A DNA stretch of 64,000 nucleotides from Spiroplasma floricola 23-6 (GTDB lineage: Bacteria; Bacillota_I; Bacilli_A; Mycoplasmatales; Mycoplasmataceae). Location: positions 496,001 to 560,000 of the forward strand of contig NZ_CP025057.1 in NCBI RefSeq assembly GCF_002813555.1. The letters are read 5' to 3'. Made by a program: the position numbers and the translations under genes. This document shows positions 46,740 to 49,197 of this stretch, in pieces (the first letter of the stretch is position 1; each line of letters starts with the position of its first letter). Below the pieces are notes generated by a model. The model saw only the letters and a program-made list of their open reading frames with translations, searched no databases and was not told the origin of the DNA.

Positions 46740-47135
46740 ATGAATAAAAAAAACTTAACAAAATTTCTATTTATAATTTATGCAATATTTGCAAGTTTTT
46801 TTATTATGAGTGTTTTGGGTCTATTTTTAGTACCATTATTTAATAAAAATTATGATCTAATTACAGTTTTTTCATCTATTTATTTAGAAAGTATTATAGG
46901 ATTTGTTATTTTCTATTTTTCCATTGGATTTATTTTTTGTTCTATAGCATCATTTTTTATGATGAAAAGTTATGAAAAAGACAAATTCACTAAAAAAGTT
47001 ATTTGATTTTCAATTCCTGGGTTTTTAGCAATGATTTGAGCAATTCCAATGGGTTTTATTTTATATAAATATATAACTTATTTTAAAAAACAAAAAAAAA
47101 TTATTACAAGAAAAAGATTTAATTGAAGAAGATAA
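46740..47135 (+). CDS. Small membrane protein with an ambiguous C-terminus
   Basis: 131 aa as read: three membrane segments (residues about 9-33, 44-68 and 88-112) and a short basic tail. ATG 46740 has GAAGGGA upstream. The frame crosses a run of nine As at 47092-47100. If one A is skipped the tail becomes L-L-Q-E-K-D-L-I-E-E-D-N-K-E-S-K-F and ends at 47154, an amphipathic acidic tail like other proteins here. The in-frame reading ends in R-F-N-W-R-R. The choice depends on the length of the A run. No family recognised. Confidence 0.6.
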
Positions 47136-47165: not shown

Positions 47166-47202
47166 AAAATGAGATACTTCATTCTACAAAGTATCTCATT
47201 TT
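47166..47202. terminator. Bidirectional terminator between 46740 gene and coaBC
   Basis: Perfect 14-base stem AAAATGAGATACTT ... AAGTATCTCATTTT with a nine-base loop, between converging genes. Right arm touches the coaBC stop codon at 47201. Confidence 0.9.
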
Positions 47203-48376
47203 AAATGTTGTCATTTATAGTTTTTAAAATATTAAAAGCAACTTTATCTTTTTTTAATTGTTCAAATTCAATAACTTTTTTTGATTTAGCCAATAATATT
47301 TTAATTTCATTAAATTCAGATTCCATTGCATTTGCTAAATTAACAATTAGCATATCTAAATTCTTTTCATTTAATTTATTTCATGCTTTTTCTAAGTTAA
47401 AATCATTTGCAAGAGAAAAACCTACTAAAAATTGATGAGTTTTTTGTTTGCCAAGTTCTTTTAAAACATCAACAGAAGGGGATAAAGAAATTTTCAGATC
47501 TTCATCTTTTATTGATCTTTTTTCTATTTTTTTGTCAATATAATTTTCAACTTCAAAGTCATATAAAGCAGCACTACAAATAACTACATCATATTTTTTA
47601 TAATCTTTTAACATTTCCTCAAGCATTTCATTGTTTGTTTTTACATAAATATTATCTTTATCAATATTGTTTGCTATTAAAGTATCACCAAACACTGTTT
47701 TAAGATATTTTGAGTTATTTTTTAAGATATTTCTTAATTCACTGCCCATTTTGCCACTACTTGCGTTTGTAATGTATCTAACTTTATCAATATAGCTTCT
47801 AGTTTTTCCAAAATTAAGCAAAATTGATTTTTCTTTTAATTTATCGAATCTATTTAAATAATTATCTATAACTTCTACAACTTCAATAGGTTCTAAAGCT
47901 CTTCCAATTCCTTCATGACCACTTGCTAATTTACCATATTTGGGCTCAATTCATTCAACTTTATTGGTTGAAATCAATATTTCTTTGTTTCTTTGATTTA
48001 TAGGGTTTAAATACATATTTGAATTCATACTTGGAAATAAAATAGTATTATAGTTTGAAACAGCAAATATTAAACTTGCAATATCATCTGCTATTCCACT
48101 AGATATTTTTCCTATATAATTATAACTTGCAGGATATACTATATTTAAGGAACTTTCAAAGGCAATCTTTATGTGATCTCCATAGTGATGATTATCATAG
48201 AAATCCCTGTCAAAAATATCTTCTAAATGATCAATATTGTTTAAATTAACAAATTTCTTAGCATTTTTTGTAGCAATTATTTTAACTTCATATCTTTCTT
48301 TTAATAAGTTATAAACTTTCAATGATTTGCTTGCAGCTATTCCACCTGTGATTATTAAATTTACTTGTCTTTTCAT
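47201..48376 (-). CDS. coaBC: Bifunctional phosphopantothenoylcysteine decarboxylase / phosphopantothenate-cysteine ligase
   Basis: 391 aa, two domains. Residues 1-175 are the flavin-dependent CoaC domain (I-I-T-G-G-I-A-A-S-K-S). His68 in G-D-H-I-K-I and Asn118 in F-P-S-M-N-S-N-M match the catalytic His and Asn. Residues about 190-391 are the CoaB ligase, with I-T-N-A-S-S-G-K-M-G and a C-terminal ligase segment. The enzyme makes 4'-phosphopantetheine for coenzyme A. The Cys normally found in the L-A-C-G segment is Ser152 here (L-A-S-G-H-E-G-I-G-R). ATG 48374-48376; weak ribosome-binding site (TGGAC). TGA is used for Trp. Convergent with the 46740 gene. Confidence 0.9.
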
Positions 48377-48756: not shown

Positions 48757-49197
48757 ATGGCAATAAAAAATTCACAATCAAATGAGGTTAAAGTTTTAAG
48801 ACCAGATGCTGTAAGCAAAAAAAATCCAAATCTTAATAAATTTGATAAGAAAAAAATTATAATTCCAGAATTTACTTCAAAAGTTGAATTACTAAAACAA
48901 GCTAATAAAGTAGCTTCTTATAAAAATTCAAAAGGTCAAAATTATCTAAATGATTTACCTGAGGGAGTTAGAAAATCAATTGAAGAAAAAGAAAGAATTA
49001 ATTTAGCACTAAATTTTGGTAAAAGTAATGAAGCTGAAGAAATAAGAAAAAGACTTTCAATTGAAAAAAAACCAATCGATAAAAAAAGAGCAAATGAACT
49101 AAGAAATGAAAGAGAAGCATTTTTTAGAGCCAATATTGAAAAATTACAAATGTCAAATTCATCTAAAAAAAGAAGAACTAAAAAAGCTAGTATCTAA
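48757..49197 (+). CDS. Small basic hypothetical protein
   Basis: 146 aa from ATG 48757 (AAGGAG upstream; TATAAT at 48716). Very rich in Lys, Glu, Asn and Arg, soluble and mostly helical (K-S-I-E-E-K-E-R-I-N ... R-K-R-L-S-I-E-K), ending in a basic cluster (S-K-K-R-R-T-K-K). The basic charge and placement beside rpsU suggest nucleic-acid or ribosome association, which is an inference. No recognised domain. A strong terminator follows. Confidence 0.7.
   Translation: MAIKNSQSNEVKVLRPDAVSKKNPNLNKFDKKKIIIPEFTSKVELLKQANKVASYKNSKGQNYLNDLPEGVRKSIEEKERINLALNFGKSNEAEEIRKRLSIEKKPIDKKRANELRNEREAFFRANIEKLQMSNSSKKRRTKKASI

Follow-up and report, generated by a model that had tools for sequence, protein, structure and literature searches.

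Serine in place of the flap cysteine in a probably functional CoaBC of Spiroplasma floricola and its relatives

The window, i.e. the whole stretch of 64,000 nucleotides analysed here, harbours a coaBC gene encoding a protein with Ser at the position of the flap Cys of the CoaC domain, a residue to which a review ascribes redox activity and without which, according to the same source, the ene-thiol is not reduced (PMC9604783). This raises the question of whether the CoaC half can complete its reaction with another residue or whether the cell obtains pantetheine by another route, the two options named in the original prediction for this locus.

Searches with protein and profile revealed a single copy of coaBC in the genome, with genes for a PTS transporter, rpsU, ruvA and ruvB as neighbours. 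The protein matches TIGR00521 (coaBC_dfp) over residues 3–387 with a score of 263.7 bits, compared to a curated cut-off of 219.7, and is made up of two domains:

47201..48376, minus strand: coaBC open reading frame, 391 aa, ATG at 48376, TGA read as Trp
47852..48376, minus strand: CoaC (flavoprotein decarboxylase) domain, residues 1–175; PF02441 at residues 5–158, 73 bits
47204..47839, minus strand: CoaB (phosphopantothenate-cysteine ligase) domain, residues 180–391; PF04127 at residues 180–357, 142 bits

The CoaB residues conserved in the family, among them Asp197, Arg200, Lys283, Lys286 and Asn346, are present in the window protein, and the fusion to CoaB sets its CoaC apart from the EpiD type, in which the HFCD protein consists of one domain and is encoded next to a lanthipeptide precursor. 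Two small ORFs on the plus strand, at 46740–47135 and 48757–49197, flank coaBC/rpsU; neither has a match in NCBIfam, and the latter is conserved in congeners beside rpsU and ruvA.

When aligning the protein with Dfp of E. coli K-12, the sequence of which was taken from its genome record, the following CoaC active-site features were located:

48173..48175, minus strand: catalytic His68 (E. coli His75), by alignment
48011..48034, minus strand: substrate motif PSMNSNMY (PXMNXXMW/Y), residues 115–122, including Asn118 (E. coli Asn125)
47900..47935, minus strand: flap loop GKLASGHEGIGR, residues 148–159, corresponding to the GxxACGxxGxGR loop
47921..47923, minus strand: Ser152 at the position of E. 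coli Dfp Cys158, codon AGT (ACT on the plus strand)

The window loop aligns with GSQACGDIGPGR of E. coli Dfp, and both the codon count and the alignment to Cys158 confirm the residue and the coordinates given in the original prediction, which was also right in stating that His68 and Asn118 are retained. The flap Cys that is usual in TIGR00521 is Ser152 in the window protein. His68 is present in every full-length sequence, be it of Cys-, Ser-, Thr-, Asp- or Glu-type (named after the flap residue), and the Pro, Met, Asn and Met of the motif together with the catalytic His are present in 24 of 24 Ser-type proteins. A sequencing error was rejected since 24 distinct Ser-type genes agree; all of these encode Ser at the flap position and the 21 genes with codons read have AGT or AGC there, which excludes an error in a single assembly. 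The window CoaC domain contains no Cys at all, which speaks against a mere shift of the thiol to another place in the domain; a relocated Cys was rejected for the other Ser-type proteins as well, which contain 0–2 Cys with no position common to all. No second CoaC was found in the window genome by protein and profile search.

An alignment of CoaBC across relatives, proposed together with the original prediction, was performed after searching 60 related genomes. It bore out the substitution: coaBC was found in 18 of the 20 sampled genomes of the genus, all 18 with L-A-S or M-A-S at the flap position, and six further Ser-type proteins came from three sister genera of the family (G030, G170 and G202; G388 and G418; G426), while one genus of the same family (g8) has retained Cys. 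Sorted by flap residue, the sequences of the order comprise 28 with Cys, 24 with Ser, five with Asp, three with Glu and a single one with Thr. A sequence search outside the mollicutes showed Cys in 61 of 61 fetched CoaBC (one from E. coli, 37 from Bacilli, and another 23 from groups such as the remaining Bacillota, Zixibacteria and Deltaproteobacteria), and a wider contig search with the single window protein as query returned distant Cys-type relatives only. The Asp or Glu at this position belongs to CoaBC of other mollicutes (L111–L115; L125, L126 and L129), and the Glu-type group also deviates at several otherwise conserved CoaB residues.

In a maximum likelihood tree of 70 sequences, built with the flap site masked and by a quick method giving approximate branch support, a single branch (SH-aLRT 99) separates the 24 Ser-type proteins from all others, and the five Asp-type (SH-aLRT 93) and the three Glu-type (100) proteins also group together. 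As the Ser-type sequences form one clade a single change explains them, and on this tree the replacement of Cys by Ser happened once, in the ancestor of the genus and its sister genera. Four changes account for all states, with Ser, Thr, Asp and Glu each having arisen a single time, and it is suggestive that all four residues are able to give or relay a proton, even if four events are no statistical proof.

To see how the two domains are constrained, about 35 positions conserved in at least 95% of 84 full-length Cys-type proteins can be compared with the Ser group, where only position 152 is systematically replaced and the others are invariant or almost so. The dN/dS values (NG86) of close pairs are 0.07–0.17 for CoaC and 0.06–0.23 for CoaB, with similar values for Cys-type pairs, and purifying selection on CoaC is as strong as on CoaB. 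Both observations indicate that CoaC is selected as a protein and not just carried along. Ser152 itself is invariant across sequences down to ~55% identity, in frames that are full-length and open.

Two congeners (G008 and G013; L171 and L172) lack coaBC while having CoaX, CoaD and CoaE, and no remnant of the gene was found at the syntenic site, which has the PTS transporter gene on one side and rpsU on the other. This counts against an active CoaC in the window organism and, being a clean loss, it shows that some species can do without the pathway. Broken-looking coaBC genes with in-frame TAA/TAG stops were seen in two related genomes (G385:C1:603564-604700, from a related genus, and G036:C1:344878-345288). 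The clean losses and the broken-looking copy in G385 would be expected from neutral decay, with CoA synthesis no longer under selection, the Cys lost and the gene disappearing, but a Ser152 that does not vary at such divergence, dN/dS far below 1 and open frames make decay highly improbable.

The remaining genes for CoA synthesis were identified in the window genome, all above their family cut-offs, with CoaX at G000:C1:1141998-1142600, CoaD at 1141449–1141874 and CoaE at 680997–681533. No type I PanK was matched, and the type II PanK search gave 0 matches, as did its control. The combination of CoaX, CoaD and CoaE without CoaBC is found in many other mollicutes, which implies that in some relatives phosphopantetheine comes from elsewhere or that CoaX is used differently. 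A survey of the genes for CoA synthesis across 62 mycoplasmas describes patchy pathways and type III PanKs with an altered PAN motif, lacking the Arg that binds pantothenate (PMC8721197). In the CoaX of the window genome (L131), LGADF takes the place of the PAN motif hGhDR, and the Arg is absent in all 39 aligned mollicute CoaX, with or without CoaBC; the B. subtilis CoaX row in this alignment served as a visual guide only. A coupling between the loss of Cys and the loss of this Arg was rejected, the Arg being missing alike in Cys-type, Ser-type and CoaBC-less mollicutes.

It could then be proposed that the CoaC half stalls, that pantetheine, phosphopantetheine or breakdown products of CoA are imported, and that the protein is kept for CoaB or as an oligomeric scaffold. 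The many relatives without CoaBC, the deletions in G008 and G013 and the missing Arg of CoaX all agree with this, as does the need of M. smegmatis CoaB for CoaC in dimerisation, described in the structure paper (PMC7794376). It is nevertheless unlikely, as CoaC is under the same tight constraint as CoaB, its other active-site residues are kept in 24 of 24 proteins and CoaB without CoaC would lead to a dead-end product, while pantetheine use by type III PanK is not known according to the survey (PMC8721197). Supply of pantetheine or other salvage is possible in the window organism, but salvage does not explain an otherwise intact CoaBC in 18 of 20 species. The second option of the original prediction is in this way a possibility that leaves the conservation unaccounted for, and the first, a CoaC using another residue, fits best since Ser is clade-wide, fixed and of single origin, the conserved residues are kept under purifying selection, and Thr, Asp and Glu occur elsewhere.

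The reading preferred here, to which a probability of about 0.7 can be given from sequence comparison, is that the window protein works as a bifunctional CoaBC, that Ser took the place of the flap Cys in a single event and that the proton would come from a non-thiol donor. The cysteine moiety of the substrate would be oxidised by FMN and decarboxylated in the usual manner by way of His68 and Asn118, after which the ene-thiol would be reduced by FMNH2 with a proton from a donor at or near position 152. Candidate donors are Ser152 itself, a water held by Ser, or Ser152 backed by a His specific to the clade:

48188..48190, minus strand: His63, putative partner or alternative donor, invariant in the 24 Ser-type and present in 4 of 84 Cys-type proteins

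His63, five residues N-terminal of His68, is one of five CoaC residues that vary little or not at all within the Ser clade but are seldom seen in Cys types, the others being Asn6, Ser116, Trp142 and Ser152. The active site of the yeast PPC decarboxylase is shared between subunits, one contributing the His and another the Cys and the PXMNXXMW motif (PMC9604783), and by analogy His63 and Ser152 could lie opposite each other where two subunits meet. However, His63 and Ser152 changed together, maybe on a single branch, and covariation can therefore not test the role of His63. The role of the thiol would in this mechanism be that of a general acid and not of an obligatory redox centre, so that other side chains capable of handling a proton could substitute. 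Given the clade-wide Ser and the occurrence of Thr, Asp and Glu elsewhere among the mollicutes the "essential" flap Cys is apparently replaceable; that CoaC catalysis has no need of a thiol, with Ser, Thr, Asp and Glu types all active, Cys a general acid and the Ser type working by Ser152/His63, is a more tentative proposal, put at somewhat below even odds.

EpiD and MrsD, peptidyl-cysteine decarboxylases, are HFCD enzymes with a reaction ending at the ene-thiol. They share the fold and the lack of a matching flap Cys with the window protein but act on peptides and have no fusion to CoaB. It is conceivable that the Ser type likewise halts at the oxidised ene-thiol, this product being used or reduced by something else, and a Ser-type profile does score EpiD slightly above AtHAL3a, though the gap is small and may be compositional. 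The intact fused CoaB, the full-length TIGR00521 match and the complete CoA gene set all speak against such an end point, and the product would be without known use here, which makes it quite improbable.

The change of a catalytic residue across a clade, in an otherwise ordinary CoaBC, is real, and the enzyme is by its sequence most likely active. A missing Cys alone is insufficient ground for calling a CoaBC inactive, a point that bears on how reduced bacteria, including mollicutes, acquire CoA. The natural Ser, Thr, Asp and Glu enzymes form a ready set for the question of acid versus redox function with no need for artificial mutants, and if they prove active without a thiol the role of the flap Cys would be shown as general acid catalysis.

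When comparing with known systems, E. coli Dfp and TIGR00521 share with the window protein the domain order, the length, the catalytic His (His75/His68) and Asn (Asn125/Asn118), PXMNXXMY, the CoaB lysines and the GxGR flap, and differ in having Cys158 where it has Ser152. AtHAL3a and the yeast Cab3-Hal3 PPC decarboxylase have the HFCD flavoprotein chemistry, the His and PXMNXXMW in common with it, but need Cys175 and Cys478, respectively, in place of Ser152. Cys-to-Ser mutants of E. coli Dfp and AtHAL3 reportedly do not complete the reaction. The statement in the original prediction that this mutation stops the studied enzymes is supported by a published result for yeast, where Cab3 C478S can neither rescue a cab3 deletion nor support growth (PMC9604783), and Ser alone is consequently inadequate in a Cys-type background. 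No publication on a Ser-type CoaC was found in an open-access library of papers, and the mycoplasma survey is silent on the CoaC Cys in its accessible part (PMC8721197). A parallel in lacking the flap Cys is the bifunctional CoaBC of M. smegmatis (PDB 6TGV), in which two textbook catalytic residues differ from E. coli Dfp, with Gly at the position of Cys158 and His (PAMH) at that of Asn125, whereas the window protein retains the Asn. The accessible part of the structure paper makes no comment on the missing Cys; silencing of CoaBC is reported to be bactericidal in M. tuberculosis (PMC7794376), and this, together with the Gly of M. smegmatis, is in favour of the functional reading preferred above. 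Since the M. smegmatis protein is also without the flap Cys, this residue alone does not define the TIGR00521 family, and, judging from that Gly, it is not universal outside the mollicutes.
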